40,552 nt of DNA, from contig JAJZJX010000015.1 in assembly GCA_021850985.1 (NCBI GenBank), forward strand, positions 1 through 40,552. Reading direction: 5' to 3'. The notes under the pieces were generated by a model, which saw nothing but the letters and a program-made list of their open reading frames with translations, searched no databases and was not told where the DNA came from. The stretch is from a bacterium (GTDB taxonomy: Bacteria; SZUA-79; Acidulodesulfobacterales; Acidulodesulfobacteraceae). The translations under genes and the position numbers were made by a program. Of the stretch, positions 2,033 to 19,310 are shown one piece after another (within the stretch, counting starts at the first letter, position 1; each line of letters starts with the position of its first letter).

Positions 2033-2106
2033 AGTTTTTCCCAAAATATTTATTGTTATTTTATATATATAAGGAATATTATTGTTATCGTATAATTTAA
2101 TTGCCT

Positions 2107-5100
2107 CTAACTTTTATAGTTAGGGATAAACTTACTATGCACTAAATAATTATATATTTCTCTAAGTATATATTCAGGACATTGATTCCGTAAAATAATA
2201 CCTTTACCATAAGACTTCACTCTTTCCGCAGGGGCTCCGATATCAAATACTGCGATTGGAAGCCCCATCTTAATAGCTTCTTCAGTAGTATATGAAAATG
2301 TTTCGGGGCAAATAGAAGGAACCAAAATTATATCGATTTCATTTGCTTCCATAAGTTTTGATAAATCTCTTTTTTTATATTCCCCATGTTTGACAACAGT
2401 TTTACTATTCTCAAGGTTTTTATTTTGAACTAAAATATTACCAAAAATATGAATTCTAAAATTCATATTATAACTGTATATATAACCTGCAAGTTTATCA
2501 ACAATAAATGAACCTTTATGAATCGTTAAATGACCTAAAACGCCAATATTTATCGTGTCTGATGTTTTGTTAACTACAACTGGATTCACCCAATCAACAA
2601 TATGGGGAATTATTTTAAGTTTGTATTCTGTCATATCCAGATAGACTCTTTTTAAGATATTGACAGAACTTCGCGAAAAACAAATTATTTTTTCTGAGTA
2701 ATCCAATAAATATTTGAATTTTTCACGCCATAATGCAATTGTTAATTCAGGATAATCCCTTAATATAAGCGAAACATCATTATTTAATGAATCTAATTTT
2801 TTTAGACAATCATTGCAATAATTCAAATCAGGGGGGACGCCGCAGTATTTAACTTCGTAATTTAAAAGGTTATATTGCGGGCATATACAAAAAAAATCGT
2901 GCACAATAAATATAAAATTAATACAATTATTATTTTTTTTAAAATCTATCAAAAAATCTAATAAATCTAAAATTTTTGGGTACGTAACAAGTTCATTAAT
3001 AATAATTTCTTTTGTATTTATATGTTTTATTATTAATTCAAGTTCTCTTATATCCTTCATTTCAAAAGATATTTCTTCAATCTTTTGTCCGCTAAATGTG
3101 ATAATATATTTTCCTGATTTAACATCGTAAACAACTATCGCTATTAATTTTTCATTTGATGCTAAATTTGTTAAGTATTCATTGGCTCCGCCTCCTATCG
3201 AATGGTTTATAACTATTTTAAATTTATATAAATTCGATAAAATTTTTATTTCTAATATTTTTCTTAATTTCATTAGATTTAATCCATTAAATTTTATAAA
3301 TTCTTCAACTAATGGAAAGTAATCAGGATGCTTAATCCGCAGCAAATATGAATTATGTTCCTTTAATTTATTTTTATCTTCGTTTAAAAATGAGCCTCCA
3401 TGTTTATGATAAACAAATAGATTTGGGACAATAATATTTTTATACCCAATTTTTCTGGCTCTCATACTCCAATCATTCTCTTCCCCATAGCCTTTACCAA
3501 AAATTTCATCAAACATGCCTATTTTTTCAAATACCTTTTTATTTATTCCCATGCAAAATCCAACACCGGTAGGAATTTCTATTGAATTCTTTTTAAAATC
3601 AACATATTGGAAAAAATAATCAAGAGTGGCGACATCTAAATTCTCAAATATTTGATTATCCTTCAAAAAATTTGGAAAACTACAAATAGTTCCTGCATTT
3701 GTAAACGGCGTAGTACTGGCAATATCATCCCTCGTTAATATCGGGTACATTAATCGTTCTATCCAGTGAGGAGGCACTTCTACATCTGTATTTAAAATAA
3801 CAAAATTATTCTTGATAAGATTAGTAAGTCTATTAATTGTTTTTACAAAACCCAGATTATTTTCATTTTCAATAATTGTGATATCTATATTATGATTATT
3901 AATTTTAAAATCTGTCAAATATTTTATTATATTAGGGTCTGAACTTTTATCATTAGCTATTAATAATCTATAGGGAATAGTTGTATTTTTTATAATGCTT
4001 TTAAATAAAGTATCTAAAAATTCATAACCATTGTAAACAGGAATAAGTATATCAATAACCGACTGAGCTGGAACTATCGGCATAGATGGCTCTATTTGTA
4101 ATAAATTAAGGAAATCCGATATTGGTTTTATTACTTCATTGTTAGATTTTAACTGTATATTATTCTTAACAATATTTTGTAATAGTTCAATTTTTGCTTC
4201 ATATTCTTTAAGTAATAATTTGCTATCATTTAATTCTTTTTCATAATCTTGCGATATCCTAATTAATTCATCTATTATATTAAAAATTTTATCTATAGGA
4301 CTTATATTATATTTTAATTCCGAATTAAAAATATTATCACCTTTTTTAACTTTTGTTAATGCAAATATATTTTGCAAAACATCTATATCGGGATTAGCTG
4401 ATTTTAATAAATTATATAAAATTGGTTTTTCGGAAATTATATTTTTAACAAAATCGGATACATAAATAGTACTTGTAATAAAATCTATTTGGAATTTAAA
4501 ATCGTCACATGATTCACTTTGATTTATAGATTCAATAAATTCTATAAAAGAATTTTTAGTAAAAAATCTTAAATGAGTTCTATCTAATAAACCAGCATCA
4601 CCATAATTAAATTTGCCTTCAATAAGATTTAAAATAATATCCGCATTTGAAATATTAGGGATACTTATTATAAAATTTGAATAAAATTTGAGTTTTTCTG
4701 ATAATAATATTATGATATACGCAGGATCCTTTAAATGCTCGAGCGCATCTCCTATAACAATATAATCAAAAACTGTGCCCATTTGGCTAAACCTTTTAAA
4801 ATCTTCACCTTCCGGTTTATCTAAATCAATTAAAAATACATCATCGTAGTCTGCTTCATGTTTTGCATAATTCAATGCATCATAGTCATTGTCTATTCCG
4901 TATACCTCGCAGTTTTTATTAATTTTTAGCCATTTTCCTAAATATCCGTAGGAACATCCAACATCAAGCACTATTGAGTTTTCAGCTATTAAGTCGACAA
5001 TAATTGATGGAGATGAATTTTTATTATTAATATCTACCTCGCTACCTTTGAGTATCAATTCATATTTTGAATTTATCTTTGAATAAAGATTATTTTTATT

Positions 5101-5118
5101 ATAATTTGCTAAATACAT
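2107..5118 (-). CDS. Trimodular methyltransferase - GT2 - GT4 glycan protein
   Basis: A 1003-residue fusion. Residues ~45-200 form a class I SAM-dependent methyltransferase (motif I VLDVGCSYGYLGKWL, then IVIGDALEHLKDP). A coiled-coil-like linker lies near 285-330. Residues ~350-610 are a GT-A family 2 domain (IDILIPVYNGYEF, LNTDVEVPPHWIERL, and GEENDWSMRARKIGYK, the ED-type catalytic segment). Residues ~640-1000 are a GT-B family 4-like domain (HSIGGGANEYL, INIGVLGHLTIHKGS, and TEEAIKMGLPIAVFDIGAPAE near the end). The ATG at 5118 follows GAGG at good spacing. Such a protein could extend and methylate a surface glycan; substrates cannot be read from the sequence. It is markedly AT-richer than the genes from 9213 upward, which suggests separate acquisition. 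Confidence 0.85.
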   Translation of the reverse strand: MYLANYNKNNLYSKINSKYELILKGSEVDINNKNSSPSIIVDLIAENSIVLDVGCSYGYLGKWLKINKNCEVYGIDNDYDALNYAKHEADYDDVFLIDLDKPEGEDFKRFSQMGTVFDYIVIGDALEHLKDPAYIIILLSEKLKFYSNFIISIPNISNADIILNLIEGKFNYGDAGLLDRTHLRFFTKNSFIEFIESINQSESCDDFKFQIDFITSTIYVSDFVKNIISEKPILYNLLKSANPDIDVLQNIFALTKVKKGDNIFNSELKYNISPIDKIFNIIDELIRISQDYEKELNDSKLLLKEYEAKIELLQNIVKNNIQLKSNNEVIKPISDFLNLLQIEPSMPIVPAQSVIDILIPVYNGYEFLDTLFKSIIKNTTIPYRLLIANDKSSDPNIIKYLTDFKINNHNIDITIIENENNLGFVKTINRLTNLIKNNFVILNTDVEVPPHWIERLMYPILTRDDIASTTPFTNAGTICSFPNFLKDNQIFENLDVATLDYFFQYVDFKKNSIEIPTGVGFCMGINKKVFEKIGMFDEIFGKGYGEENDWSMRARKIGYKNIIVPNLFVYHKHGGSFLNEDKNKLKEHNSYLLRIKHPDYFPLVEEFIKFNGLNLMKLRKILEIKILSNLYKFKIVINHSIGGGANEYLTNLASNEKLIAIVVYDVKSGKYIITFSGQKIEEISFEMKDIRELELIIKHINTKEIIINELVTYPKILDLLDFLIDFKKNNNCINFIFIVHDFFCICPQYNLLNYEVKYCGVPPDLNYCNDCLKKLDSLNNDVSLILRDYPELTIALWREKFKYLLDYSEKIICFSRSSVNILKRVYLDMTEYKLKIIPHIVDWVNPVVVNKTSDTINIGVLGHLTIHKGSFIVDKLAGYIYSYNMNFRIHIFGNILVQNKNLENSKTVVKHGEYKKRDLSKLMEANEIDIILVPSICPETFSYTTEEAIKMGLPIAVFDIGAPAERVKSYGKGIILRNQCPEYILREIYNYLVHSKFIPNYKS

Positions 5119-5154: not shown

Positions 5155-8100
5155 TTATAGGCTGAACCAGCCCTCTGGCAAAAATATCGAAAATAAAGAG
5201 TCCGGTCTAAGGTTGAAATCAGGATTGTAAGCAAAATCGTGTTCAATAATTTTACCCCATTTATTTTTAAAATAATCTATCTCTTTTTTGAACCTGATCT
5301 GCTTTTCTTTTGTGTCGCAATATCCTCTAGTTTTAGATTCATAATGATAAAGAATTGCATAAGGCGTATAAACATTATAATATCCTAGTTGCATAACTTT
5401 CAGACAAAAATCTACATCATTATACGCAACGGCTAAATTTTCGTCCAAGCCACCCGCATCTTTATATAATTTTTTTCTAATAGCCATACATGCCCCCGTG
5501 ACGGCAGAATAATTTTGTAATAAATTTGCTCTTCCGAAATAACCTTGATCATTCTTATCAAGTTTTCTAAAAATATGGCCAGGATAGCCTCCATATGTAA
5601 TTACCACCCCAACATGCTGAATAGTATCGTCCGGAAATAAAAGTTTAGCGCCGACTGCTCCTATTTCGGGACGCAAGGCATGGGAAACAAGCTCTCTTAA
5701 CCAGTCGTCATTAATGACTTCGGTATCGTTATTTAATAAAACCAATACCTCTCCTTTTGCAAACTTTACCGCAAAATTATTAATAGCCGAATAATTAAAA
5801 GGCTTATTGTATTCTATTACATTTATATTATTCAACTGCATAATCGTTCCTAAATATTCAATCGTTTTTTTATCATTACTGTTGTTATTAACAACTATAA
5901 TCTCATAATTTTTATATGAGGTTTTTCTAATTATGCTATCTACACATTTTTTTAATATTTCATATCCGTTATATGTCGGGATTATTATGCTCACCAAAGG
6001 ATTACCTATTATATCGTATATTACTCTGGTAAAATCTGATAATAGCGGTGCTTCCACTACTTTAGCCATTATTTTTAACCTGTCGAGATGGTCCTGAATT
6101 GCTTTTCTTGCGACTGATGCCGCATATAATTTATTTCCTATATTTATGGCAATAGAACCTTCCGTCATTCTCCAGTGATATAATATCATTGGAATATGTC
6201 TTATTTCGTTATATTTTATTTGTTCTATAAATCTGAGTGCCAAGTCGTAATCCTGCGAGCCTTCATATCCCTCCCTGAAGCCTCCTATTTCATCGACTAT
6301 CTCTTTTTTATAAACTCCTAAATGTCTTATCATATTCTGGGATAGAAATAAATCGGGGTTCCAGTCGGACTTAAAATAAGGATTTACTCTTTTACCTTTT
6401 TCATCAAGTTTATCCTCATCACTGTAAATCAACTTTGTTTTAGGATGTTCGTTTATCTCCTTGATCACAAAGAATAAAGAAAATTCCGACAGTTCGTCGT
6501 CGTGATCCAACAATGCTATATAATCACCGGTCGCGAGCGACAGAGCACTATTTGACGCTTTTGAAATATTACCATTTTCGGTTCTATAAATTACTTTAAT
6601 TCTTTCGTCTTTTTCTTTGTAATATTTTAAAATTTCCTTAACATATGTTTCCGTAGAAGCATCGTCGGCAATACACAGTTCCCAGTTTTGATATGTTTGG
6701 TTGATTACGGATTCTATTGCCTTAATTAAATATTCTCTGTCTGTATTATAAGCGGACATAATAATGCTTATTTTCGGATTAAATTCGAATCCGAAGACTC
6801 TTTGTTCTTCAAGTTCCGTTTGGGAAGGTTCGTTATATTTAATCCATACTTCATAAATTTCATGCTGGTCCAACGATATCTTTATCTCTTTATTATGTTT
6901 AGCTATATTGTTAATTACTATCCTGTATGCAAAAAGTAATTTTTCTTTTTCATTAAGTAATAATCTTACATCTTTTTGGGATTCTAATATATCTAAACTT
7001 CGTTTAATATCGATTCTTTTATTATAAATTTTTATATCATATTCATTTAATTCTAAAAGATTATTACAAAGTCTCAATGCTTCTTCATATCTTTTGTTTA
7101 AGGTTAAAAAATCAATTTCGCTTTCGATAGATTTAACACTATTTAAAGAAATATAATATTTAGAAACATCGTTTTTAGATTTATTCGAGATAAATAAATT
7201 ATCCATTTCGGCAAATATATAATTATCTCTTTTATATTTGAGCCACCATTTTTTTATAAAGCGGTTAATATTTTCAATATCGTGCTTTTTTCTGCCCGCC
7301 GTTTTTTCTTCAAAATGAAATATTATGCTTTTTGGATTAAATATCAGCCTGTAACCCGCTTCTCGCAATTTAAGGCAAAAATCCACATCCTCGAAACCGT
7401 TAATATATCCATCATCAAAACCGCCAACCGTCTCGAATACTTCTTTTTTTAGCATAAGGCATGCAGCCGTAAGCGCGTTGTAGCTTCTTATGTAAATTGT
7501 ATTCTTGATATCCGATTGCCCGCAGCCGGATATATCCATTCCGGAATAGGCATTATAAGGAACTAAACGTTCCTCAAACATTATGCCGGCCTGCTGAATT
7601 TTTTTGTCGGGATATAACAGCAGAGGACCTGCTGCACCGATTTTTAAAGATTTTGCCTCGCCGGAGTTTATAGAACAATATAGTTCGTCTATGGCTCCCT
7701 TTGAAACTACCGTATCGTTATTTAAAAATAAAATATTTTGCGAGCGTGAAATTTTCGCTCCAATATTAGAGGCTTTAGCAAAACCTAAATTTTCATCGTT
7801 TGAAATAAAGCGAAAATTATTTAAACCGTTAAACTCGGCAAAATATTCCTTTGTTTCGTCGGTTGAACCATTGTCTATTATGATTACTTCAAAGTTCAAG
7901 AGAGGATGATTTTTAAATATCGAAAAAACGCATTGTTTAGTGTAACTAAAATTATTATATGCAGGTATTACTATCGATACGTCAAAACTCTCGGTTTTAT
8001 GGTCTCTTTTATAATTAGTCCCGCCGGAAAGGGCATTATAAGACGGAATATCCATAGAGTCCGCAAGAAAATAATTAAACCCGCCGCCGGCATAAAAAGA

Positions 8101-9210
8101 GGAAAGTTGTAAAAGTAAAGCTTTATCTTTTAGTGCTAAGCCGTTAAAATCTTCTCCTATGATTAGCGTTTTAAAAGTGGTTTTAACGATATAAGGAAAA
8201 TCGGTTTTAAATTTTTCTATAATATTTTCTTTGTTTTTCGTATCGATAAAAACGGAATCTATAATAAGAAAAAAATCGTTTCCGGCTATTCTGTGCTTAT
8301 CTAAAAAAGCGCGGATATTAGTCATATTTTCCTGCGAATAAAATAAATCCGGTTTGCGGCCGTCAAGGCTTTTAAATTCATAATCTATAACAGGAAACGG
8401 ATTAAAATCGTCAATATATATAACATAGTCGATGTTTACCGAAGGAGATTCCGCGGAACAATGTTTTAAATAAATATTTTCGTCGAAAATTTTCCAGTCG
8501 TCGGAAACTAAATATAAATCCCAGTTATTATATTTATTATGTATGTCCCTGATTAAAACTGTACATTCAAGTAATTTTTCCGGTTGTTTTAAATCAATGT
8601 TTATTAAAACTTTTTTAGGCTGCTTAGATATGTCTGTCAAACCGATTTTTTTAGAATTAATTTTAATTTTCCCCTGCTCGTATTCGCCTGCCGAAACTAC
8701 AGGAAAAACGTTTATAAAACCGGCATATTCCATATATCCTTTCAGCAGATATTCAGAAACAGCAGTTCCTATATACTCAAAATAAAACGATGAACCGTAT
8801 GATAATATTCTGAAAGCCTCTGAAAATAATTTTCCCAACTCTTCATAAGTATAATCGTCGGTTATACCTACGAACGATAATGCTTTAACGGAAGAATCAG
8901 GTATATTTTTAAAAATGCTTAAAGACTCGTTGATTTTTCTTTTATCGCAAAAGTTGATAGCGGCGGAAAAATTAAAATTATCTGATTTTTTTAAAGCGAT
9001 TTCTATATAATCTGAATTTTCATTTAATTCGCAAATTAACAGACCGTTTTGATTTATTTTTTCTTCAAATAAAGGCAAAAATATATAATCCTTGGGAACC
9101 GCAAATTTAAAAAAAACCGACGATTCCAGCTCTTTAATAATGACGGATAGAGATTCATTTAAGGCCTTTTCGCCGAAAATATTAAATATTTTAGTTTTTA
9201 TATTATCCAT
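5155..9210 (-). CDS. Giant glycosyltransferase with three GT2 domains
   Basis: 1351 residues. Residues 1-190 look like a degenerate SAM-methyltransferase fold (YEELGKLFSEAFRILSYGSS) without a clear motif I; 190-400 is not recognised. Three GT-A family 2 modules follow. The first (~408) has VSIVIPAYNNFSYTKQ, FLNNDTVV and FEDVDFCLKLREAGY. The second (~812) has ISIIMSAYNTDREYL, ALLDHDDELS and GSQDYDLALR. The third (~1072) has VSIIIPTYNGYEILKK, LNNDTEVI and NDVDFCLKVMQLGYY. All three keep the aspartates of the nucleotide-sugar site. The start ATG lies 2 nt after the cysC stop and has no Shine-Dalgarno sequence, so translation is probably coupled to cysC. The likely role is stepwise addition of several sugars to one glycan, acting in the cytoplasm. 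Confidence 0.85.
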   Translation of the reverse strand: MDNIKTKIFNIFGEKALNESLSVIIKELESSVFFKFAVPKDYIFLPLFEEKINQNGLLICELNENSDYIEIALKKSDNFNFSAAINFCDKRKINESLSIFKNIPDSSVKALSFVGITDDYTYEELGKLFSEAFRILSYGSSFYFEYIGTAVSEYLLKGYMEYAGFINVFPVVSAGEYEQGKIKINSKKIGLTDISKQPKKVLINIDLKQPEKLLECTVLIRDIHNKYNNWDLYLVSDDWKIFDENIYLKHCSAESPSVNIDYVIYIDDFNPFPVIDYEFKSLDGRKPDLFYSQENMTNIRAFLDKHRIAGNDFFLIIDSVFIDTKNKENIIEKFKTDFPYIVKTTFKTLIIGEDFNGLALKDKALLLQLSSFYAGGGFNYFLADSMDIPSYNALSGGTNYKRDHKTESFDVSIVIPAYNNFSYTKQCVFSIFKNHPLLNFEVIIIDNGSTDETKEYFAEFNGLNNFRFISNDENLGFAKASNIGAKISRSQNILFLNNDTVVSKGAIDELYCSINSGEAKSLKIGAAGPLLLYPDKKIQQAGIMFEERLVPYNAYSGMDISGCGQSDIKNTIYIRSYNALTAACLMLKKEVFETVGGFDDGYINGFEDVDFCLKLREAGYRLIFNPKSIIFHFEEKTAGRKKHDIENINRFIKKWWLKYKRDNYIFAEMDNLFISNKSKNDVSKYYISLNSVKSIESEIDFLTLNKRYEEALRLCNNLLELNEYDIKIYNKRIDIKRSLDILESQKDVRLLLNEKEKLLFAYRIVINNIAKHNKEIKISLDQHEIYEVWIKYNEPSQTELEEQRVFGFEFNPKISIIMSAYNTDREYLIKAIESVINQTYQNWELCIADDASTETYVKEILKYYKEKDERIKVIYRTENGNISKASNSALSLATGDYIALLDHDDELSEFSLFFVIKEINEHPKTKLIYSDEDKLDEKGKRVNPYFKSDWNPDLFLSQNMIRHLGVYKKEIVDEIGGFREGYEGSQDYDLALRFIEQIKYNEIRHIPMILYHWRMTEGSIAINIGNKLYAASVARKAIQDHLDRLKIMAKVVEAPLLSDFTRVIYDIIGNPLVSIIIPTYNGYEILKKCVDSIIRKTSYKNYEIIVVNNNSNDKKTIEYLGTIMQLNNINVIEYNKPFNYSAINNFAVKFAKGEVLVLLNNDTEVINDDWLRELVSHALRPEIGAVGAKLLFPDDTIQHVGVVITYGGYPGHIFRKLDKNDQGYFGRANLLQNYSAVTGACMAIRKKLYKDAGGLDENLAVAYNDVDFCLKVMQLGYYNVYTPYAILYHYESKTRGYCDTKEKQIRFKKEIDYFKNKWGKIIEHDFAYNPDFNLRPDSLFSIFLPEGWFSL

Positions 9211-9212
9211 GT

Positions 9213-9833
9213 TTAAACTAAAAGTTTATTATTTGCTCCGCTGATAGTTTCTATAATTACTTTAACGCCTTCTTCTGCCTTTATACTGTCTGCCTTTATA
9301 TGCACATCCGGCTTTTCAGGCTTTTCGTAAGGAGAATCTACGCCCGTATAGCTTTCTATTTCTCCATTCAACGCTCTTTTGTACCAACCTTTGACATCCC
9401 TCTTAACGCATTCGTGAAAAGGCGTATCTATAAATATTTCGACAAAATCGCCGGAGCCTATTATTTCTCTTGCCGTCTGCCTGTGCTTCTTTAGTGGCGA
9501 AATAAACGACGCTATAACAATAATCCCTGCATCTACGAAAAGCTTTGCGGTTTCGGCAACCCTTTTTATGTTTTCCAACCTGTCCCACTCTGAAAACCCA
9601 AGCCCGCTGCTTAGTCCGTGCCTTATATTGTCGCCGTCGAGCAGATAGGTATGGCGGCCTTTTTCGTAGAGTTTCTCTTCAAGCATATTGGCAATTGTGC
9701 TTTTTCCGCATCCGCTCAGTCCTGTAAGCCACAAAACGCAGCCTCTTTGGTTTTTAAGTTTTTCTCTGTCGCTCCTTTTTATTTTATGTTCAAACCAGAC
9801 GACGCAAGAACTTGAGTGATTTTTTATGTTCAT
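9213..9833 (-). CDS. cysC: Adenylylsulfate (APS) kinase
   Basis: Phosphorylates APS with ATP to give PAPS, the universal sulfate donor. Diagnostic features are the P-loop GLSGCGKST, LLDGDNIRHGLSSGLGFS (APS-binding DGDN and the R/L run), ASFISPLKKHRQTAR, FVEIFIDTPFHEC and YTGVDSPYEKPEKPD. Length is normal for stand-alone CysC. The frame opens further upstream to 9866, but those extra 11 codons are translated from a palindromic repeat (9838-9865), so I place the start at the ATG at 9833 (weak GGAA upstream). No ATP sulfurylase or PAPS reductase lies nearby. Directly upstream is a sulfotransferase and directly downstream is the triple-GT2 protein, so this PAPS is probably destined for glycan sulfation rather than cysteine synthesis. 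Confidence 0.93.
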   Translation of the reverse strand: MNIKNHSSSCVVWFEHKIKRSDREKLKNQRGCVLWLTGLSGCGKSTIANMLEEKLYEKGRHTYLLDGDNIRHGLSSGLGFSEWDRLENIKRVAETAKLFVDAGIIVIASFISPLKKHRQTAREIIGSGDFVEIFIDTPFHECVKRDVKGWYKRALNGEIESYTGVDSPYEKPEKPDVHIKADSIKAEEGVKVIIETISGANNKLLV

Positions 9834-9837
9834 ATTT

Positions 9838-9865
9838 CCGGGTTCCCGCTTTAGCGGGAATGACA
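9838..9865. repeat. Palindromic repeat, TTCCCGC family (copy 1)
   Basis: Imperfect palindrome: TTCCCGC, TTTA, GCGGGAA, followed by TGACA. It is the same family as the repeats at 31302, 31391 and 34718. It sits between the sulfotransferase stop and the cysC start and creates a spurious in-frame ATG for cysC. Confidence 0.8.
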
Positions 9866-9870
9866 AGATA

Positions 9871-10839
9871 TTATAGAGATTCCATTAATTCGGTAATTTT
9901 TGCGTTTTTTTTATCGAAATCTTTTTTTAAGCAAATCAATGCGTCGAATTGAGCCTGCATATATAAAAGCGTGGAGCGGAGTTCCGCCATCCATGAATAA
10001 ATTTTATTAATTTTTGCCGCCGCTTCGATACTATCTATGGAAATTTCATCTGTTGCTATGCGTTTAAGCAAAACGTAAAGTTCTGCAATTTTAGGCGGAA
10101 CTTCCTCATTAGCGGCAAGGTCAGATATCCCGAAACTTGTATGCCTTAGGGATTCGCTCAAAAATGATTCTTTATACTCTATAAACTCGGCGCTCTTTGA
10201 ATCAAACTTTAAATTCAGGCGCTCCGCTACCCTTCTAAGCTGTTTTTCGGGATCTTTCATCATTTCATCGTAATCTACGACTATGCGGTTATAACCTGCC
10301 GAATGGATTAAGGAAGCAATAATGTAGCCGAGCCATATATAGCAGCCCTTGACTAAGTCGAATCCGTCCCTTTTCTGCATAGATTTTGCGGTGCTTAGGG
10401 GATTTCGGCATGTTATGATATACGATACATCCGCTCCAACATCTTTAAATATCTCATTCCATAGGGGCAGAAGCCTTGCGATTAAAGGGTCTTTAAAACC
10501 GAATAAATCATTTGTTGCAAACCTCCTTTGCAGAATATTTGCGGCAATAGGATAAAATGCCGATAAAACCTGCTTCGTATTATCATCAAATATCGGCAAA
10601 ACCGGATTATCCCAAGTATAGCCGATAGAGTTCAGCATGCTTACGTCTAAATGGCTAATTTCTAAATCCTCGAAATATCCTTTTTCGTTATCCGAACCGA
10701 CGATTTCCTGTCCGTAAAACCTCCCGAGATTAACACCTAAAACTTGAAGTCCTCTAGTAATTGCGCTCGTGCCGCTCCGCTGAACCCCTATTACAGCTAC
10801 GATACGTTTTTTTTTAAAATCATTTAGCGTCTGATGCAT
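9871..10839 (-). CDS. PAPS-dependent sulfotransferase family protein
   Basis: 322 residues. The N-terminal VAVIGVQRSGTSAITRGL is the 5'-phosphosulfate-binding loop of sulfotransferases (consensus close to RSGTS/T). The segment YIITCRNPLSTAKSMQKRDGF (~residues 138-158) carries the R…S pair of the 3'-phosphate-binding motif. The following RIVVDYDEMMKDPEKQLRRVAERLNL is the usual family continuation. It moves sulfate from PAPS to a hydroxyl or amine of a glycan or protein. The start codon overlaps the upstream gene by 20 nt and has no Shine-Dalgarno sequence, so translation is likely coupled. Lying directly upstream of cysC and inside a glycan island, its acceptor is probably the surface or flagellar glycan (inference). 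Confidence 0.85.
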   Translation of the reverse strand: MHQTLNDFKKKRIVAVIGVQRSGTSAITRGLQVLGVNLGRFYGQEIVGSDNEKGYFEDLEISHLDVSMLNSIGYTWDNPVLPIFDDNTKQVLSAFYPIAANILQRRFATNDLFGFKDPLIARLLPLWNEIFKDVGADVSYIITCRNPLSTAKSMQKRDGFDLVKGCYIWLGYIIASLIHSAGYNRIVVDYDEMMKDPEKQLRRVAERLNLKFDSKSAEFIEYKESFLSESLRHTSFGISDLAANEEVPPKIAELYVLLKRIATDEISIDSIEAAAKINKIYSWMAELRSTLLYMQAQFDALICLKKDFDKKNAKITELMESL

Positions 10840-11464
10840 TAGAATCGTCGTTTATTTTAGTTTTCATATCTTTTAAAATATTTTCAAATATTTCTATATT
10901 AGGCTTAAGTTCGAACTCGACTATGTCGGCAAGAAGAACGTAGTCTTGTTCCACCTGCGTAGAAAGAACGGAAGAAAGAATTTTTTCAAGTTCGTTAAAA
11001 TAAGATTGTACGCTTTTGCCGTCATAAACTATATTATTGTAATCTATTTTTAAAAACTGCGATATTTTTTCCATAATCTGTATAAACATAGTAAGTCCGC
11101 TAAGATATGCCGAAAAATCTTTAAATCCTCCGACGCTGTTTCCCCATCTTATTTCATCGGTGGTTTTTACTATTCCGGCTTTAAATTCTTTTAAAAACGT
11201 TATAGCGGCGTTTAACGAACCGTTTACAAGTTCAAGCTGGCTCATAGTAGTTATTTTAATCTCGTCGGCTTCTCCGAGTTTAAATGCTTTTGATTTGTCG
11301 GCGTTCAGCATTAAATCGTCGTATTGGGTTCCGTTTATAACTATGCTTTTTATTACTTTGCCTTCGGGAATAAAACTTTTTACGCTGCCGCCGAATAAAA
11401 TATCGTGCATACTGCCGGCGTTTGAAACGAAATCATTTAAATTTCCGTCGATATATAGTTTCAT
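10820..11464 (-). CDS. Uncharacterised 214-residue protein of the flagellar glycan island
   Basis: I do not recognise the family. The N-terminal ~75 residues look like a small beta-rich module (MKLYIDGNLNDF, GKVIKSIVINGTQYDD, AFKLGEADEIKI). The remainder is predicted helical (LVNGSLNAAITFLKEFKAGIV, AYLSGLTMFIQIMEKISQFL, YFNELEKILSSVLSTQVEQ). It has no signal peptide, membrane segment or cysteines, so it is probably cytoplasmic. The ATG at 11464 follows a good GGAGG. Its end overlaps the sulfotransferase start by 20 nt, which suggests the two proteins are made together. A helical partner or scaffold for the sulfotransferase or the flagellin is possible but unproven. Confidence 0.75.
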   Translation of the reverse strand: MKLYIDGNLNDFVSNAGSMHDILFGGSVKSFIPEGKVIKSIVINGTQYDDLMLNADKSKAFKLGEADEIKITTMSQLELVNGSLNAAITFLKEFKAGIVKTTDEIRWGNSVGGFKDFSAYLSGLTMFIQIMEKISQFLKIDYNNIVYDGKSVQSYFNELEKILSSVLSTQVEQDYVLLADIVEFELKPNIEIFENILKDMKTKINDDSNASDAK

Positions 11465-11551: not shown

Positions 11552-11556
11552 AATTT

Positions 11557-13263
11557 TTATTGCGTCTGATTTTTTATTCTATTCAAAAATATTAACGAAA
11601 CTTTTTTCAATATACTTAACTGCAGTTTATATTTTGAATAGTTTTTCAAAGAATCTATGGCAAGACCAAACAGGTCGTAGCTGACGGAACTGTTCTGGCT
11701 TATAACGTGCATCTGGTTAAATAAAGACAGGTCATCGTAAACCGAAGATATATATTTTAAATCAAAATCAATAGATTTAATATTGCCCGTATGTTCGTCT
11801 ATTTTTTTAGAATTAAAAGGATCTTGAAGGGCAAGATTAATCATTTTTTTAGTCTCCGACATACCTCTTTTACATAAAGCGATAAGGTTTTCAACGGACT
11901 TTAATTCTTCCTCGATATCTAAGCTAAGATTATATTCTATGCCCTCAAAACAGTCAAGGAAAAGTTGAATTTCGTTTTCGTCTATATTACAAAAATCTCC
12001 TTCGTAATAATGTTCGAGGGATAATTTTAGTATTTTAAGTTTCAAATCTTTAAAATTTAATTTAATTTTTACGGCAGGCAAATAATCGATAAATTTTTTA
12101 GAATCAAAACGCGATAAATAAGGAATTATACCTATATTTTTGTATTTTGAAAGTTTTTCCGCATAACCGGTTTCTTTTTCTAAAATCATTAAAGACATAT
12201 CGTAAATATATTCCGGTTTAATCAGCCCCTGACAAACAGGATTTAAACATTTTAAATTAAAATCGCAAGGAAAACATCCTATATCCGGAATTACGAGCAG
12301 GCGGTTATCGGCATAAGGTCCGGTTTCCAAAAACCCTACGTTGCCTGTATAAATAACGATTAATTTAGTTCCGACTGCAACCCCGATATGCATTGTTCCC
12401 GTATCGTGGGTTATAAGGAGATTTGAGCGCCCGACTATATAAATAAGATCGGAAATCGATGTTTTGCCGGTAAGATTGATAAGCCTTTCATTGGAAACTA
12501 TGCTTTCTATAAAGCCGCCTGCTTTAGCGTCGTAGTCTGCCCCTAGTAAAACGACTTTAGTTTTAGTATCTCCGTTTAAAAACATCTTAGCCAGTTCGGC
12601 AAAATAATCGTAACGCCATTTTTTAAGTTCGGTCGATGCTCCTATAGCAAAAGAAATAACAATATCATTTTCTTTTATACCGTATTTTTTTAAGACTTCA
12701 AACCCTTGCTCTCCGTCCTTTTTTTTTGCGTCTAAATAGATGTTGTTAACGTGTATTTTATTGCAGCCCTGCTTTGTTTTTAATGTTCTTTCATAAATAT
12801 CCACGAGGTTTAAAACGCTTACCTTTCTGTTTTTAACGGCGGAAAATATATAGGCTATCATTTCGTCGTTGGATATTATAGTTCTTTCTCGAGTTACGGA
12901 TATGCCTATATTTTTTAACGAATTTAATATATAAAGAAAATATGCACTTATTTCGTCATGGGAAAGATTTACGGCAAGGTCGTAATTTACGTTTAAAATA
13001 CCGTCAAACATGGCATTTAAGGCTCTTAAAATTTCTAAAGTAAATTCGAAATTGTTTGCTTTCAATAGCCCTGAAAGTCCTTTGAAATCTACTGTCTTAA
13101 TTTCATCTACATACGGCAGGAACAGCATAATTTCTGCAAATTCACTAGAAATTATAAGTTTGACATGGCTTTCGGGATAAGTTAATTTAATTTTTTTAAA
13201 AAGAGCCGTGGACTGAATAAGGTCGCCCATACGGGTAAGGTTCAGTATGATTATATTTTTCAT
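11557..13263 (-). CDS. Glycosyltransferase family 9 (heptosyltransferase-like) protein
   Basis: 568 residues. The N-terminus IIILNLTRMGDLIQSTALFKKIK has the GT9 signature with the catalytic-type Asp of RMGD. The second Rossmann half carries FAIGASTELKKWRYDYFAELAK and, near residue 286, HDTGTMHIGVAVGTKLIVIYTG, the donor-binding loop of ADP-heptose transferases. A CxxC…C…C cluster (CFPCDFNLKCLNPVC) follows at ~327. A ~170-residue helical C-terminal extension beyond the GT9 core is unusual. Similar proteins occur next to flagellin genes, and here the gene is one of two GT9 genes downstream of fliS. An AGG 4-5 nt before the ATG is the only ribosome-binding signal. The actual sugar is unknown. Confidence 0.85.
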   Translation of the reverse strand: MKNIIILNLTRMGDLIQSTALFKKIKLTYPESHVKLIISSEFAEIMLFLPYVDEIKTVDFKGLSGLLKANNFEFTLEILRALNAMFDGILNVNYDLAVNLSHDEISAYFLYILNSLKNIGISVTRERTIISNDEMIAYIFSAVKNRKVSVLNLVDIYERTLKTKQGCNKIHVNNIYLDAKKKDGEQGFEVLKKYGIKENDIVISFAIGASTELKKWRYDYFAELAKMFLNGDTKTKVVLLGADYDAKAGGFIESIVSNERLINLTGKTSISDLIYIVGRSNLLITHDTGTMHIGVAVGTKLIVIYTGNVGFLETGPYADNRLLVIPDIGCFPCDFNLKCLNPVCQGLIKPEYIYDMSLMILEKETGYAEKLSKYKNIGIIPYLSRFDSKKFIDYLPAVKIKLNFKDLKLKILKLSLEHYYEGDFCNIDENEIQLFLDCFEGIEYNLSLDIEEELKSVENLIALCKRGMSETKKMINLALQDPFNSKKIDEHTGNIKSIDFDLKYISSVYDDLSLFNQMHVISQNSSVSYDLFGLAIDSLKNYSKYKLQLSILKKVSLIFLNRIKNQTQ

Positions 13264-13270: not shown

Positions 13271-15094
13271 TTAAAGCCCTTCGAGTTTGACTAATTTTGT
13301 TCTTATCGCCCAAAGCATTAAAATCATGGCTTCCGATTTCGACAACCTGCCATCGCCGCTCTTTATGCGCTCCGCCATATCCCTTATAGAAAGAGATTTC
13401 TTATCGGAAAACTGCATAATAAGGTCGTGAAGTTCTTTGTTTCCTTCTGTTTCTTTCAAAAGCTCCGATATATTATGCCTTCTTGTTTCAAGCTTAGATT
13501 TTATTTGATCGTATGAACCCATAAGTATTATGTTCATCATTTCGCGGATGCGGCGTTCGTATGTATGGTTTTTAACGACGGTTTTCCTGCCGTGTGCAGC
13601 TATAGACAGCCTTTCCTCTTCATTGGCAAGATAGTACTTTATTTTTTTTCTCAAATCGTCAACCGTATCAAAAACTACTAAATCTTTTCCGTCTTCAAAG
13701 ATTCCTTCCATGTACTTGCGCCTGTCAACAAGCTGAAAACCGCCGCAGGCTAAAATTTCGTAAACTCTCGGATTTAAAAAATCTCCGTTGGGATTTATAT
13801 CCCAGTGCCACATAGAAGAATGAAGATTTATATTTATTTTGGAATAATTATAAATTTTGACTGCTTCTTCTTCGGTAAATCTTTTACCGCTGTCCTGAAT
13901 CAACAGACTTAAAGGCAGTCCGACATACCAGTCGGCTCCCCATATTTTAAAATTAAAATCAATAAGCTGGGCAAAGACGTTTTTTCTGTTGTAATAGCCC
14001 GCTCCTGCAAAACTTACGTCGGAACCGTATTTTATTTTGTCTACTTCGTTAATTTCGGTAATTTTTTTATGAAAATCGGGAAGACAGGCTAAGGGAAGAT
14101 AGTGATAGTTATCGGCTCCGATGTTTTTAAGTTCGGCAAAAAAGTCGTCTTTTTGTATCGTAAAAAAATAATCGACGTTTTTTACAATGGTATTCCAGTA
14201 GGTAAGCGTTCTGAAATCTTCTACGAACCAGTATGCCGTTTTAATACCCATGCTCCTAAGTTTTAAAAGCGTTCTTTCGCTTGCCGGAGACTGCGCCATA
14301 AAAATAACCAAATCCGGAGGTTCGTTAAAAACGGAAGAAAGAAGGGCTTCCGACATAAGGTTAAATAAACTCTGTTTTAACGAATTTACATGGTCTTCGT
14401 TAGGGGTAAATTCGCCCATATATTTATAAGCGTCGTAAAATTTTGAAAAGTCGAGTATTTTTGCATCATAACCCAGATTTAAAAGAGCTGAATACAGATA
14501 ATTTCCAATGGTTGAAGACCCTCCGTACATCGGCTGTACGACCAAAACCTTAAAGGAAGACGGAGTAAAAAACTGGTTAATTCCATGAAGTTTATGGATA
14601 AACGAATACTCTTCGGGAAATATTTTTTTATAGGAAGGTAGTTCGCATAATAATATACTGCCTTTATCGAGTTCAAGTTTTTGAGAGATAATGGAAACTT
14701 CTGAATTTAAGTTTTCGCCTATATAATTAATACCTTTGTCTATACGGTCCAAAACCGTGACGTTTATTTTAGACAGTAATTCTGAAACTTCAAAGTTGCT
14801 TTTTATAAATTCAAGAGATTCTTGAGCAGGTTCGACAACTTCTATTTTTATTTCTTTATTATCTTTTTTTAAAAAATCTATTAAAGATTCTATATTGTAA
14901 CCAGCGCCTAATCCGAAAACTATTATTTTATCCGGTATTCCTCCCGAGTTAATTCTTTCCATTACCTGAATAGCCCATTTCTGAGATTCGGAAACCGGGT
15001 CGTAAACGGAATGCACGGTTATACCGTTTATCTTAAATGACGGGGCGGATGGAATTTTCGTTTTGATAATTTCGAAATTGATATTATTATTCAT
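13271..15094 (-). CDS. CgeB-like glycosyltransferase (GT-B, spore-maturation/flagellar glycan type)
   Basis: 607 residues. Residues ~50-170 (IIVFGLGAGYNIESLIDFL, then KIEVVEPAQESLEF) resemble the Rossmann-like N-terminal region seen in motility-accessory and flagellin-glycan proteins. Residues ~183-330 start with VLVVQPMYGGSSTIGNYLYSAL and include AYWFVEDFRTLTYWNTIVKNVDYFFT, typical of CgeB. Residues ~360-530 form the GT-B C-terminal half (DVSFAGAGYYNRK, NPRVYEILACGGFQLVD, NHTYERRIREMM). The C-terminal ~70 residues are helical. It lies between two GT9 genes, 8 nt upstream of the second. The family is well known in operons for flagellin or surface glycans; donor and acceptor cannot be assigned. 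Confidence 0.83.
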   Translation of the reverse strand: MNNNINFEIIKTKIPSAPSFKINGITVHSVYDPVSESQKWAIQVMERINSGGIPDKIIVFGLGAGYNIESLIDFLKKDNKEIKIEVVEPAQESLEFIKSNFEVSELLSKINVTVLDRIDKGINYIGENLNSEVSIISQKLELDKGSILLCELPSYKKIFPEEYSFIHKLHGINQFFTPSSFKVLVVQPMYGGSSTIGNYLYSALLNLGYDAKILDFSKFYDAYKYMGEFTPNEDHVNSLKQSLFNLMSEALLSSVFNEPPDLVIFMAQSPASERTLLKLRSMGIKTAYWFVEDFRTLTYWNTIVKNVDYFFTIQKDDFFAELKNIGADNYHYLPLACLPDFHKKITEINEVDKIKYGSDVSFAGAGYYNRKNVFAQLIDFNFKIWGADWYVGLPLSLLIQDSGKRFTEEEAVKIYNYSKININLHSSMWHWDINPNGDFLNPRVYEILACGGFQLVDRRKYMEGIFEDGKDLVVFDTVDDLRKKIKYYLANEEERLSIAAHGRKTVVKNHTYERRIREMMNIILMGSYDQIKSKLETRRHNISELLKETEGNKELHDLIMQFSDKKSLSIRDMAERIKSGDGRLSKSEAMILMLWAIRTKLVKLEGL

Positions 15095-15117: not shown

Positions 15118-16731
15118 TTATATTAAAATATTAATTGCGTTATTTAAAAGCAAAATAATATCGTCAAAACCTTTCTGCGCGCCCGACGAATTTAATTCGT
15201 CTATAAAGTAATCGCTTGCAAGTTTAAAATAGGCATAGTTTAAACCTAAAGATTTAACGGCGTTTTTAAATTTTTCAAAATATAAAGAAGTACGATCAAA
15301 TTCACAAAAAGATTTTTGGGCATTTTCAAAAACTTCTTTAATAAATGAAATTTCCTTTATTAAAGAGGTTAACTCTGCTTGGTCTATTTTATAATATTTG
15401 TTTGTATATCTCAAAACATTATTTTTATCTATTTTTGCACTATTTTTTGAAAGCGCGTTAATCCAGCAGAACTTAAATATTTCCGAAGCAAATTCGTTTT
15501 TGGATATTTTTCTTTTATATAACGGATAAAAATGAATCGAGTCTAAATGTTTACAGACGGCGACGGAAAAATTTCCTTTTTTTGCATTTGCAATGACTCT
15601 TTTTTTAACATCTGAAAATTTAATTTCCTGTTCATTATGTTCTTTTAAAAAATGATGTATTTTATTTTTAATAATCTGCATTAAAACAAGATTAAAAACG
15701 TCTTCGGGGTCTATATCGTTTTTGCATGAGTAATTATAGATACAAGGCTCGTGCTGCATACAAGGATAACAATGTATTTTAGAGTGTATTACGTATGAAT
15801 TTTCTATATGAGGCCCCGTTTCGTAAAAATTGGCATTGCCTGTATAAATAGAAACCGACGGAATGTTAAAAATCTGAGCTATATGTAAAGTTCCGGTGTC
15901 TGATGAGATAATTAAATCGAAGTCTTTTATGAGATAAATAAGTTCATTAAGGCTTGTTTTTCCAGTTAAATCTATAATATCAACACCGTCAGGCAGTTTT
16001 TTCTTTATTTCTTCGGCGGCGGAAGATTCTTCGGCAGTCCCTACTATTATTATTTCGCAGTTTAAATTTGAATAAAGCAAGGCGATTAATTTTGCGTAAT
16101 TTTCGGACTGCCAGATTCTTTTTGGGTGGGTTGCTCCAATGGAGATGCAAATTCTGACGGGTTCGCCGCTTACACGCTTTTTATTGATTGCAGTCTTTTT
16201 TTTTAAGTTTATAATGCCGTATTTAGCCTTAATTTCTGCCGGTTTTTCGCTTCCTATAAGAGAATATAAATCAGTTATATGTATTCTGTTGAGGCTGCGG
16301 TTTTTTACGATATTAAAAAGATAGTTTGCAGCGCCGCTTCTTGAAACAGATTCCGTTGTTTTATTAGATTTATTTAATACGATAAACCCTAGCTTACCAT
16401 TTTTAAAAAAACTTAGAAAGAGAGAATTAGTAAAATCGTAGTTTAAGTTTACGGCAAGTTTATAATTAGAAGCAAAATCCGATATAAAAGTATCAAATTC
16501 GTTTAGGCGTTTAACGGAAATCCCCAGAGAATTTAAAAGATTTTGATAAGTAAAAAAATTTATTTTTTCGTTAAAAATACTTCTTATTCCAAATATGCTT
16601 TCATCTATAAGAATATCTATTTTTTCAAGTTCATCGGCGTTTTTAGAACATAATTGCTTTAAAGTTTCTATAAGCGGAACAGATTGAAAAAAATCGCCTA
16701 TTCGTCTCGTCTGAAATACAAATATTTTCAT
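15118..16731 (-). CDS. Second glycosyltransferase family 9 protein
   Basis: 537 residues with the same plan as the other GT9 protein in this operon. The N-terminus is KIFVFQTRRIGDFFQSVPLIETLK. The donor loop near residue 275 is SSDTGTLHIAQIFNIPSVSIYTG, followed by the Cys cluster CYPCMQHEPCIYNYSC and a long helical C-terminal extension. The two GT9 genes are probably old duplicates, with matching order of motifs but low identity. It follows fliS by 30 nt, with no Shine-Dalgarno sequence before the ATG, so it is likely read through from the flagellar genes. Role: cytoplasmic glycan assembly, probably on flagellin (inference from context). Confidence 0.84.
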   Translation of the reverse strand: MKIFVFQTRRIGDFFQSVPLIETLKQLCSKNADELEKIDILIDESIFGIRSIFNEKINFFTYQNLLNSLGISVKRLNEFDTFISDFASNYKLAVNLNYDFTNSLFLSFFKNGKLGFIVLNKSNKTTESVSRSGAANYLFNIVKNRSLNRIHITDLYSLIGSEKPAEIKAKYGIINLKKKTAINKKRVSGEPVRICISIGATHPKRIWQSENYAKLIALLYSNLNCEIIIVGTAEESSAAEEIKKKLPDGVDIIDLTGKTSLNELIYLIKDFDLIISSDTGTLHIAQIFNIPSVSIYTGNANFYETGPHIENSYVIHSKIHCYPCMQHEPCIYNYSCKNDIDPEDVFNLVLMQIIKNKIHHFLKEHNEQEIKFSDVKKRVIANAKKGNFSVAVCKHLDSIHFYPLYKRKISKNEFASEIFKFCWINALSKNSAKIDKNNVLRYTNKYYKIDQAELTSLIKEISFIKEVFENAQKSFCEFDRTSLYFEKFKNAVKSLGLNYAYFKLASDYFIDELNSSGAQKGFDDIILLLNNAINILI

Positions 16732-16761: not shown

Positions 16762-17244
16762 TTAAACGGATACGGTAATACCGCCGGAAACTTGTTTGCC
16801 GGAAATGCCTGCCGACTGAACAGGTTCAGCGTTTATGGCGGAATTAACGCCGGAAACTTCAGATTTTTGATTCTGCATTCTGTCTTTTTCTATTATAATT
16901 TTCCATCCGTTTAAAAGATTTTGAAGTATAGTAAGCGACTCGTCAAGTTTGTGGGCATCTTTTTTTAAGTTTGCGGTAGTAAGATGAATAGACAAAAAAG
17001 TGTAAAGTTTATTTAAATTTTTTGCCGTTTCTCCGCCTTTTTCCATATTAAGACGCGCATTGAGCTCGTTAATTATGGAAACTGCATTAGATATGTTTAT
17101 GGATTTGCCCGCATAATCGTTTTGCGCAAGTCTTTCTTTTGCTTCCTTGACAAAATTTATAGCGCCTTCGTAGGCCATTATTATAAGAGTACCCTGATCA
17201 ACGGTATTAACGTTTATATTTTCGTATTTTGAAATTGCATCCAT
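16762..17244 (-). CDS. fliS: Flagellar export chaperone FliS
   Basis: 160 residues, slightly longer than the usual ~130 because of a loose C-terminal tail. It is all-helical with the family landmarks: N-terminal AISKYENINVNTVDQGTLIIMAYEGAINFVKEAKERL, central ISNAVSIINELNARLNMEKGGETAKNLNKLYTFLSIHLTTANLKKD, and the LTILQNLLNGWKIII helix. It binds the C-terminus of flagellin and prevents premature polymerisation in the cytoplasm. It follows fliD as in many flagellar operons. A strong AAGGAGG precedes the ATG by about 12 nt. Confidence 0.93.
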   Translation of the reverse strand: MDAISKYENINVNTVDQGTLIIMAYEGAINFVKEAKERLAQNDYAGKSINISNAVSIINELNARLNMEKGGETAKNLNKLYTFLSIHLTTANLKKDAHKLDESLTILQNLLNGWKIIIEKDRMQNQKSEVSGVNSAINAEPVQSAGISGKQVSGGITVSV

Positions 17245-17311: not shown

Positions 17312-18781
17312 TTATGCGCCTTGAGCTATCATCTGTTTTATACTGCTCGTCATTGCAGAATTAGTTGTCTGCATCTGTCCTATATAAGATTCTAAGCTTG
17401 AAAACTGTTTCGTATACATACCCATCTGATCCTGTACTAATGCCTGCTGAAGAGAAATTTGGTTATTCATAGCCGTAAGCTGGTCATTTATATCCTGTTC
17501 GCTGAACTGTATAACTCCGTTTGCCGGATTTGTATATGTTTTTAAAAAATTAGTCAAACTGCCCTGGTAAGACACACCGTCCGCAGTCGGCGAACCGTTT
17601 ACTAAAGAACTGAAAAACTGCTGAACCTGCTGCGGATCGGATGTCAGCATATTGTTTAACTCGGTTGTATTAAGCTGCAGTTTGCCGGAGCCGCTTGAAC
17701 TTTGCGTGATTCCGTAAGTAGAAGCAAGTCCGGCATTTCCGGAAAGACCCGCACCTTCGCCGCCTATAAAACTGCTAAGGTTAGTTACTAAATTAGTCAA
17801 CGAAACATTACCGCCGAGAGGACCGAGAGTTTCCGATTTTGTATTCCCCGAACCGCTCGAAGTTACTGTATTTTCTGTTGCAACATCACCTATTACTTTA
17901 TTATATGCCGAAATAAAACTGCTTACGGCATTATCTATAGTCTGCGTATCCAAACCAACAGTAATAGTAGTTGAACCTTTAGATGCTACATTTAAGGTAA
18001 CGCCCGGAATAACGTTTTTTATGGTATTAGACTGGCTTGTTATACTTATGCCTTCATAACTTAATGCTGCATTTGCCGCAGATTGAGTAGTAGTAAAAGT
18101 AAGAGCCGTTCCTCCTGAAAGATTGTCAGTAACGGAAGGCGCATAATCAGTTCCGGTATTATTAGCCGTAAGAACAAGCTGATAAGGATCTGATGAACTT
18201 CCGTTGTTTATAATGGAAGCGGTGACGCCAGCATTGTCATTATTTATCGTCTGCGCCAAATCTGCCAAAGTATAACCTGTAGAAGAGTTTAAAGCTACAT
18301 CTGTAGTGTTTCCGTTAACGGTTATATTAAAAGTCCCCGTCGAACCCGAGCTTGCAACGGCTGTAGAAGTAGACGCCAAGCCTTGTGAAGCAATTACTCC
18401 TGAAGTGGCAAGGCTTGAAACGGTTATATTATATGTTCCCGGAATAGCGGAAGACGAAGCCTGAGCCGTCGCAACGGAAGTATCGCTTGAAGTCGCCGTA
18501 TAAGATTGAAACACAGACGGCTGCCCGAGAGCCGAGGCAGACGAACTTAAAGTAGAAATATCCGAACCAATAGCTTGCCATGCCGAAAGTTGGTTATTAA
18601 GAGGCGTCTCCTGCGCCTGCATCATTGCAATAGGTGCGGAAAGCGCTTTATCGAGAGCATTTAGTATAGCCGTATAATTAATACCCGATTCGGGACCTGT
18701 TCCCATAACTATAAGACCCTGGTTTGGATATGAACTCGGCGTTAAAGTACTGCCTACCGAGGAAGCCGAAGATACAGACAT
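17312..18781 (-). CDS. fliD: Flagellar filament cap protein FliD (HAP2)
   Basis: 489 residues. The FliD N-terminal domain is at ~30-130 (GINYTAILNALDKALSAPIAMMQAQETPLNNQLSAWQAIGSDI) and the C-terminal domain at ~250-480. The C-terminal domain includes VSSFISAYNKVIGDVATENT, LNTTELNNMLTSDPQQVQQFFSS, and the terminal coiled-coil DINDQLTAMNNQISLQQALVQDQMGMYTKQFSSLES. The middle is rich in Ser/Thr/Gly/Ala, as expected for the surface-exposed part. It caps the growing filament and folds incoming flagellin. The ATG follows GAGGTG at good spacing. It lies between flaG and fliS. Confidence 0.93.
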   Translation of the reverse strand: MSVSSASSVGSTLTPSSYPNQGLIVMGTGPESGINYTAILNALDKALSAPIAMMQAQETPLNNQLSAWQAIGSDISTLSSSASALGQPSVFQSYTATSSDTSVATAQASSSAIPGTYNITVSSLATSGVIASQGLASTSTAVASSGSTGTFNITVNGNTTDVALNSSTGYTLADLAQTINNDNAGVTASIINNGSSSDPYQLVLTANNTGTDYAPSVTDNLSGGTALTFTTTQSAANAALSYEGISITSQSNTIKNVIPGVTLNVASKGSTTITVGLDTQTIDNAVSSFISAYNKVIGDVATENTVTSSGSGNTKSETLGPLGGNVSLTNLVTNLSSFIGGEGAGLSGNAGLASTYGITQSSSGSGKLQLNTTELNNMLTSDPQQVQQFFSSLVNGSPTADGVSYQGSLTNFLKTYTNPANGVIQFSEQDINDQLTAMNNQISLQQALVQDQMGMYTKQFSSLESYIGQMQTTNSAMTSSIKQMIAQGA

Positions 18782-18851: not shown

Positions 18852-19310
18852 TTACAACTTGCCGTTATACAGCGAACCTTTATGGTAATTAGACATCATT
18901 TTTAAAACAGAATTAGGCGGAATCTGTGCTAAAACTTTACCCGTTTTAAAATCAACTACGTTAATAACCGCTCCGTCTGCACTTGCATCCCATTTAAAAA
19001 GCATTGCCTGAGATAACATGGGGGAAGGATTAAGGTTAGCCTCAATCTGTTTACTTAATTCTTTTTGTTTTTCGACATTACTTTTAGCATAATTAGCCTG
19101 TTGTTGATTCTGGGTTTCAGAACTTGCATGCTGATTCTGGTTTAAAGTTTTTGTAGTAACGGCATTATTGTTAGCATTGCCTTGATTGTCAGTATTTTGA
19201 TTTACGGCATTTGCGTTTGAATTGTTAGTTTGCTGGGTTGTTGAATTTGCGCTATTATTGCCGTTGCCTATATTTATCGAATTTAAGTTTAACGATAATA
19301 TATTGTTCAT
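18852..19310 (-). CDS. flaG: FlaG-family flagellar protein with Asn/Gln-rich N-terminus
   Basis: 152 residues. The last ~60 match FlaG (LSKQIEANLNPSPMLSQAMLFKWDASADGAVINVVDFKTGKVLAQIPPNSVLKMM). The first ~90 are low-complexity, dominated by Asn, Gln, Ser and Thr, and probably disordered. FlaG proteins influence filament length and are usually encoded beside fliD. The ATG at 19310 has only a weak AAGAAGTGA ribosome site, which fits low expression relative to flagellin. It sits between fliC and fliD in the same direction. Confidence 0.85.
   Translation of the reverse strand: MNNILSLNLNSINIGNGNNSANSTTQQTNNSNANAVNQNTDNQGNANNNAVTTKTLNQNQHASSETQNQQQANYAKSNVEKQKELSKQIEANLNPSPMLSQAMLFKWDASADGAVINVVDFKTGKVLAQIPPNSVLKMMSNYHKGSLYNGKL

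Follow-up and report, generated by a model that had tools for sequence, protein, structure and literature searches.

What would an APS kinase and a sulfotransferase do among glycosyltransferase genes behind a flagellin? The window, i.e. the whole stretch of 40 552 nt that we analysed, is one entire contig (C8) of a draft genome with 84 contigs and a completeness of 81%. The first-pass annotation had reported an adjacent APS kinase and sulfotransferase, downstream of fliC-flaG-fliD-fliS and in the same direction. Both genes are where it had placed them (cysC at 9213-9866 and the sulfotransferase gene, STF, at 9871-10839, both minus), and they belong to one co-directional minus-strand run with the order fliC-flaG-fliD-fliS-GT9a-GT1_2-GT9b-unk214-STF-cysC-GT2-fusion-GT17:

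19379..20293, minus: fliC, flagellin, the presumed carrier (Pfam Flagellin_N 95.8 bits, Flagellin_C 66.3 bits)
18852..19310, minus: flaG (PF03646 42.5 bits)
17312..18781, minus: fliD, filament cap (PF07195 and PF02465)
16762..17244, minus: fliS, flagellin chaperone (PF02561 116.6 bits)
15118..16731, minus: GT9a, GT9 glycosyltransferase, first after fliS (PF01075 82.6 bits; same slot in relatives)
13271..15094, minus: GT1_2, Glyco_trans_1_2 glycosyltransferase with DUF3880 (PF13524 122.4 bits)
11557..13263, minus: GT9b, GT9 glycosyltransferase (PF01075 69.3 bits)
10820..11464, minus: unk214, protein of unknown family (214 aa); overlaps STF by 20 bases
9871..10839, minus: STF, predicted PAPS-dependent sulfotransferase (profile, motifs, predicted fold, dN/dS)
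9213..9866, minus: cysC, putative APS kinase CysC (PF01583, TIGR00455)
5155..9210, minus: triple-domain GT2 glycosyltransferase (PF00535 254.6 bits, three stretches); starts 2 bases past cysC
2107..5118, minus: methyltransferase-GT2-GT1 fusion (Pfam)
779..2044, minus: GT17-like glycosyltransferase (PF04724 102.7 bits)

As unk214 overlaps STF and only those 2 bases separate cysC from the GT2 gene, these genes are probably co-transcribed. The annotation had counted seven glycan-related genes; we found six glycosyltransferase ORFs (by Pfam GT9, GT1_2, GT9, triple GT2, methyltransferase-GT2-GT1 and GT17) together with unk214, and the number seven holds only with STF counted. Its observation that assimilatory sulfate-reduction genes are missing nearby agrees with our scan: none was named among the scanned ORFs of the window (29 by Pfam; pilM by NCBIfam; all but 11-298, 26112-26693 and small overlapping ORFs). 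The middle part of the fliC product is rich in Ser/Thr (22 of the 75 residues at 144-218, by composition).

The gap between GT9b and unk214 is 92 bases long and holds a palindrome in the window; the same two genes overlap in G004. Related palindromic elements are located at 11504-11551 (in this gap) and at 20711-20759 (before fliC), with a similar one in G029:C9 (L041 1879-1897). A search for sigma-54 or sigma-28 promoters upstream of fliC returned only two bare GG-N10-GC matches, and these candidates were dropped. Consensus scans gave 121 promoter-like sites versus a shuffle mean of 87 (sd 8.5), and 14 terminator-like sites versus 12.8.

Taken alone, STF scored just under the Pfam cut-offs (PF13469, 26.0 versus 27 bits; PF00685, 19.4 versus 22); PF13469 (Sulfotransfer_3) matched all 18 aligned members of the STF family at E≤0.01, with the best value of 7.4e-7. 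Residues R21 S22 G23 T24 S25 and R145 N146 P147 S153 are invariant in the 18 rows; we take them to be the 5'-PSB loop and the 3'-PB motif. Eight residues (S22, G23, S25, K116, P118, R145, P147 and S153) are kept in six divergent rows as well as in three unlike sulfotransferases, 18-33% identical. The AlphaFold model (pLDDT 82.4) had five fold matches in PDB at E≤0.001, all of them sulfotransferases: TPST1, TPST2 and the CurM and Ols sulfotransferase domains, several solved with PAP, with human TPST1 with PAP as the best match. For these five, TM values of 0.35-0.50 (15-17% identity) put the model in the same superfamily and say nothing of the same function. The acceptors of TPST1/2 and CurM/Ols are peptides or polyketides; unlike these enzymes, STF sits in a glycan operon. 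We predict from motifs and model that STF is a PAPS-type sulfotransferase, which would transfer sulfate from PAPS.

The product of cysC scored 218.5 bits with PF01583 (cut-off 21.1) and 244.5 bits with TIGR00455 (cut-off 138.7); it passed the equivalog-domain model, has an intact P-loop, GLSGCGKST, and aligns with solved APS kinases over nearly the whole length. Positions T48-G52 and G54-T57 are invariant in 14 rows, and comparison with relatives indicates that translation probably starts at the ATG at 9833. By family and motifs CysC appears to be a full-length APS kinase, expected to make PAPS. It is the only complete APS kinase that we found in the 81% complete genome; the second match was a partial P-loop match in another frame, presumably Ffh. 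The values of dN/dS were 0.10-0.20 in 8 comparisons of STF, with 0.10-0.16 for the window's gene set against four relatives, and 0.11-0.15 in 4 comparisons of cysC; both genes are under purifying selection.

The comparison sample consisted of 30 genomes of the phylum, all draft MAGs of one family. The STF profile matched 20 of the 30 at 1e-10. Close copies were present in 17 genomes, 24 copies in all out of 29 profile rows; we left out two rows of one broken gene (G006:C15, 43% and 30%) and, as distant, G015:C70, G008:C157 and G023:C29, while L033, the same contig as G004:C61, was counted once. Fourteen of the 24 copies, the window's included, are on contigs reaching flagellar genes, and in all 14 STF lies behind fliS-GT9a-GT1_2-GT9b. 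Of the remaining 10, eight are on contigs whose sequence sets in within this glycan block and two on contigs that set in within STF. The annotation would have been contradicted by relatives carrying the pair with no flagellar genes nearby: this was the case in none of the 14 assessable copies, the other 10 of 24 being on contigs that end too soon. In 21 of the 22 copies with downstream sequence cysC is directly next to STF, G003:C1 being the exception. The second genus has the order GT9b-STF-cysC-unk214, with unk214 on the other side in comparison with the first genus; since unk214 changes side between genera while the pair stays together, STF-cysC moved or stayed as a unit. With this arrangement recurring in many relatives and with the low dN/dS of STF, the pairing is not a matter of chance.

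At the level of genomes, too, STF goes with flagellar genes. We considered 23 genomes as flagellar: 21 of the 30 with a flagellin match at 1e-30, G012, whose contig holds flaG, fliD and fliS, and G007, by its glycan block alone (its contig begins in GT9b). Of the 23, 17 have a close STF, as against none of the seven genomes with no flagellin match; the Fisher test, uncorrected for relatedness here and in both variants, gave p=0.0008, with p=0.005 if G007 was counted as lacking flagellin (16/22 versus 1/8) and p=0.018 if G023 and G026 were also counted without their suspect STF contigs (14/22 versus 1/8). The six flagellar genomes that lack a close STF are G006, G015, G017, G019, G021 and G022. 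All of them but G015, whose contig ends in GT9b, keep the glycosyltransferase block and unk214 (in G017 the block is split over two contigs). In G026 the genome's own flagellar block (C182) is also free of STF; the copy counted for this genome lies on another contig, which is genus-1-like. As glycan blocks with no close STF do exist, we regard the glycan block as the core and the predicted sulfation as an added module, not needed for the glycan.

Rows for cysC numbered 33: 23 of the flagellar type, eight of another type, G003:C71 (in another context) and a weak fragment in G025. Of the 23, all but two adjoin STF; these two are a truncated one in G019 and G023:C3, where the contig begins in cysC. 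The G019 gene (L218 7468-8240) lacks the P-loop and has no STF nearby; the module may have decayed there, or the sequence may contain an error. Individual draft genomes have additional STF-cysC copies on short contigs (L034, L035, L041, L044 and L232), some of which resemble genus 1 but sit in genomes of other genera; mixed strains, wrong binning or transfer could account for them. Those in G023, G026 and G029, which resemble genus-1 sequence, may be binning errors. In G004 genes for NeuB-cupin and a TPP enzyme follow further downstream; NeuB-type sugars are common on flagellins.

Within one genus two forms of STF occupy the slot, one with 70-86% and the other with 46% identity to the window's STF, and the neighbours are 74-92% identical. 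The 46% form occurs in G002, G011 and G013, where unk214 is 85, 83 and 92% and cysC 80, 82 and 86% identical to the window's genes. In the STF tree these three sequences group with the STF of the second genus (support 95/94, with a long-branch outgroup); 4 of the 16 inner branches were well supported, and we used the tree only for the split into types. With STF unlike and both neighbours alike, STF was probably exchanged independently of its neighbours. Such exchange is as would be expected of an enzyme setting a variable surface feature.

The unk214 gene was found in 22 of the 30 genomes and is part of the glycan block in the mapped loci. Neither Pfam (at 0.001) nor NCBIfam matched it; a Pfam search with members of its family gave nothing better than E 0.006. 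The model (pLDDT 83) has an N-terminal beta part followed by long helices, with no PDB fold at E≤0.001. As a candidate for a known family nothing was convincing (a FliS-complex fold match, at E 0.29, was disregarded). Its dN/dS was 0.15-0.17 in 3 comparisons.

Where could the APS come from? Away from the window locus, the genome carries sat and aprB, beside a gene for a 641-aa FAD protein of the size of aprA and for further FAD/FeS proteins; with sat and aprB present elsewhere in the genome, APS should be available. The sat profile matched 27 of the 30 genomes. A PF01507 protein is also encoded elsewhere; in both relatives examined (L143 1417-3498, L144 1-2091) it is fused to a sulfatase-like domain, with CC...CxxC, and its scores with the NCBIfam models of APS reductase and PAPS reductase are both below cut-off. 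PF01507 occurs with no cysC in G001, G006 and G008, and cysC with no PF01507 in G004, G007, G011 and G026 (draft genomes, in which single absences are weak indications). Assimilation as the purpose of cysC was rejected, as the presence of PF01507 does not track it. The CysQ model had no match in the genome (81% complete).

The genome has a second sulfotransferase, of the TPR type (884 aa, L248 444-3098, G000:C70), that could use PAPS as well. It is 45% identical to the TPR-sulfotransferase of G019, located downstream within the flagellar locus itself, where STF is missing and cysC has no P-loop; besides the genome's own, TPR-type sulfotransferase proteins lie at L218 321-1985 and L249 9643-12252, one of them being this G019 protein. 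The second type of cysC, 51-52% identical where measured, is present at eight places in the phylum, two of which we examined. In L234 it follows genes for GDP-mannose dehydratase and epimerase and precedes an inositol-phosphatase-family gene passing the CysQ cut-off; in L235 the genes after it encode a flippase and a sulfotransferase of 347 aa. Both are probably loci of sulfated polysaccharides, judging from gene content. The second cysC type with its different sulfotransferase makes a contrast to the flagellar link rather than a refutation of it: L235 has a flippase, and the scan of the window's flagellar block named none.

We consider it fairly probable that the locus is a flagellin glycosylation operon with a sulfation module and that the glycan of flagellin is sulfated. 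In the proposal that PAPS is made locally for a flagellin glycan, the first part stands: local making of PAPS and its use on a glycan are well supported by sequence, given the intact cysC, the fold and motifs of the sulfotransferase, the strict adjacency and the glycosyltransferase block. The second part is less firm; what points to flagellin as the carrier is synteny. Glycosyltransferases that adjoin fliC, run in the same direction and are kept across species make up a flagellin glycosylation island, and all three features were observed. One could argue instead that the product of the glycan block and STF is a sulfated polysaccharide of the cell surface (O-antigen, LPS core or exopolysaccharide), and that these genes lie behind flagellin by coincidence. 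GT9 is the heptosyltransferase family, and relatives of STF on plasmids of Phaeobacter and Cereibacter sit among polysaccharide genes (glycosyltransferase or ABC/sugar-export). These are two of five plasmid relatives examined among the best 20 of 46 records, all with identity <60%; one of the others is beside a single glycosyltransferase, one among IS elements and one in an unannotated record, whose ORFs matched only STF out of the window set, and none of the five is beside an annotated flagellin. (Relatives were also seen in viruses, at 23-30% in six loci and at 32% in one phage record.) A locus for lipid-linked polysaccharide, O-antigen or capsule, would include genes for a flippase/polymerase or an ABC exporter; Pfam named none of these among the nine window ORFs at 779-16731. 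With the order behind fliS fixed across genera, no flagellum-free copy among those assessable, and a separate cysC type in the phylum having sugar-nucleotide genes, a flippase and another sulfotransferase of its own, we find the surface polysaccharide unlikely.

Other alternatives change the substrate or the role of one enzyme. That STF sulfates flagellin directly on tyrosine, like the tyrosylprotein sulfotransferases, is suggested by TPST1 as the best fold match and by TPST2 in the top five; however, fold neighbours at such TM values do not give specificity, the pair sits inside a glycosyltransferase block, and of the five Tyr residues of the window flagellin (2, 50, 143, 238 and 260) only 143 is at the edge of the variable part and is absent from eight longer flagellin relatives examined, making tyrosine a very improbable target. 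CysC could serve general sulfur metabolism or the TPR-type sulfotransferase and be next to STF incidentally; there is no other complete APS kinase for these roles among the genes found, and a second sulfotransferase does exist, but the near-constant adjacency to STF and the occurrence of PF01507 and cysC one without the other, which do not look coupled, leave this reading little chance. CysC homologues are not always APS kinases; in Campylobacter CysC is reported to take part in capsule phosphoramidate synthesis, and the pair might likewise move another group from a nucleotide carrier. Against this, CysC passes the APS-kinase model by >100 bits and aligns almost end to end with solved APS kinases, sat is present, and no other gene of a phosphoramidate pathway was named among the scanned ORFs in the general Pfam/NCBIfam scan; the chance of such a role seems to us close to negligible.

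In the favoured reading, a sulfated flagellin glycan, Sat, encoded with the apr genes elsewhere, would make APS, and CysC would phosphorylate it to PAPS on the spot. The GT9, GT1_2 and GT2 enzymes would build a glycan, and STF would pass the sulfate of PAPS on to a hydroxyl of one of its sugars. Synteny and what is known of flagellin glycosylation elsewhere suggest that the glycan would be attached to Ser/Thr of the variable middle of flagellin in the cytoplasm, prior to FliS-guided export; sulfation too would take place in the cytoplasm before export. STF would be the replaceable part: depending on which of its two forms fills the slot, a different sugar or position would receive the sulfate. 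It is conceivable, with our doubts slightly outweighing our trust, that the whole phylum of sulfur-metabolising bacteria sulfates filament glycans in the cytoplasm from APS of the dissimilatory pathway and varies its surface by swapping STF in a fixed slot.

Flagellin glycosylation islands are known in Campylobacter, Pseudomonas and Aeromonas; as in these, the window's glycosyltransferases are next to fliC and co-directional with it, whereas the cysC-sulfotransferase module sets the window apart. The annotation regarded sulfation of bacterial flagellar glycans as little described, and no precedent in a bacterial flagellin appeared among the literature matches listed. Neither sulfation of a bacterial flagellin nor a cysC-sulfotransferase module was among these matches, mostly outside subscription papers; in the literature searched, with the same coverage, the phrase 'sulfated flagellin' was not found, and 'flagellin glycosylation' together with 'sulfotransferase' came up, in the text available, only in the context of giant viruses. 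According to the accessible part of PMC8743553, Campylobacter jejuni HS:19 has a sulphation cluster, cysD-cysN-permease-cysC-sulphotransferase, proposed to sulfate surface biomolecules. As in the window, cysC there adjoins a putative sulfotransferase; unlike the window's pair, that cluster is downstream of a capsule locus, has its own ATP sulfurylase and, in that part of the paper, has no link to flagellin.

A swimming filament with sulfate is known from an archaeon: in the available text of PMC11980604, which cites Wieland 1985, two sulfotransferases, VNG1056C and VNG1057C, sulfate N-glycans of Halobacterium salinarum, those on archaellins among them, and loss of sulfation affected motility only slightly. 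In both cases the subunit of a motility filament has a sulfated glycan, known there and predicted from genes here. The archaellum, however, is not homologous to the bacterial flagellum, and its glycan is N-linked; the likeness is drawn at the level of systems. The Akkermansia paper PMC8262928, as far as its accessible text goes, had no bearing on the question.

If our reading is right, sulfate would be a filament decoration in bacteria too, as previously reported for an archaeon, and dissimilatory sulfate activation would be linked to surface chemistry. If these organisms are bacteria of acid mines, as we suspect, sulfate esters would let the filament stay negatively charged at low pH, where carboxylates are neutral. 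The predicted mark is +79.957 Da on flagellin glycopeptides. A phylum with a single family and with sat and apr genes would fit Ca. Acidulodesulfobacterales (PMC6776010). In that taxon fliC and fliD rank with the most highly transcribed genes, according to the accessible part of PMC6776010, so that existing metaproteomes could test this prediction if the organisms do belong there.

Elsewhere in the window, one ORF (35759-37204) combines a ferritin-like domain with a formate/nitrite transporter domain, and a PMT_2-type glycosyltransferase gene (27985-29568), on the opposite strand, adjoins the pilM-Q genes.
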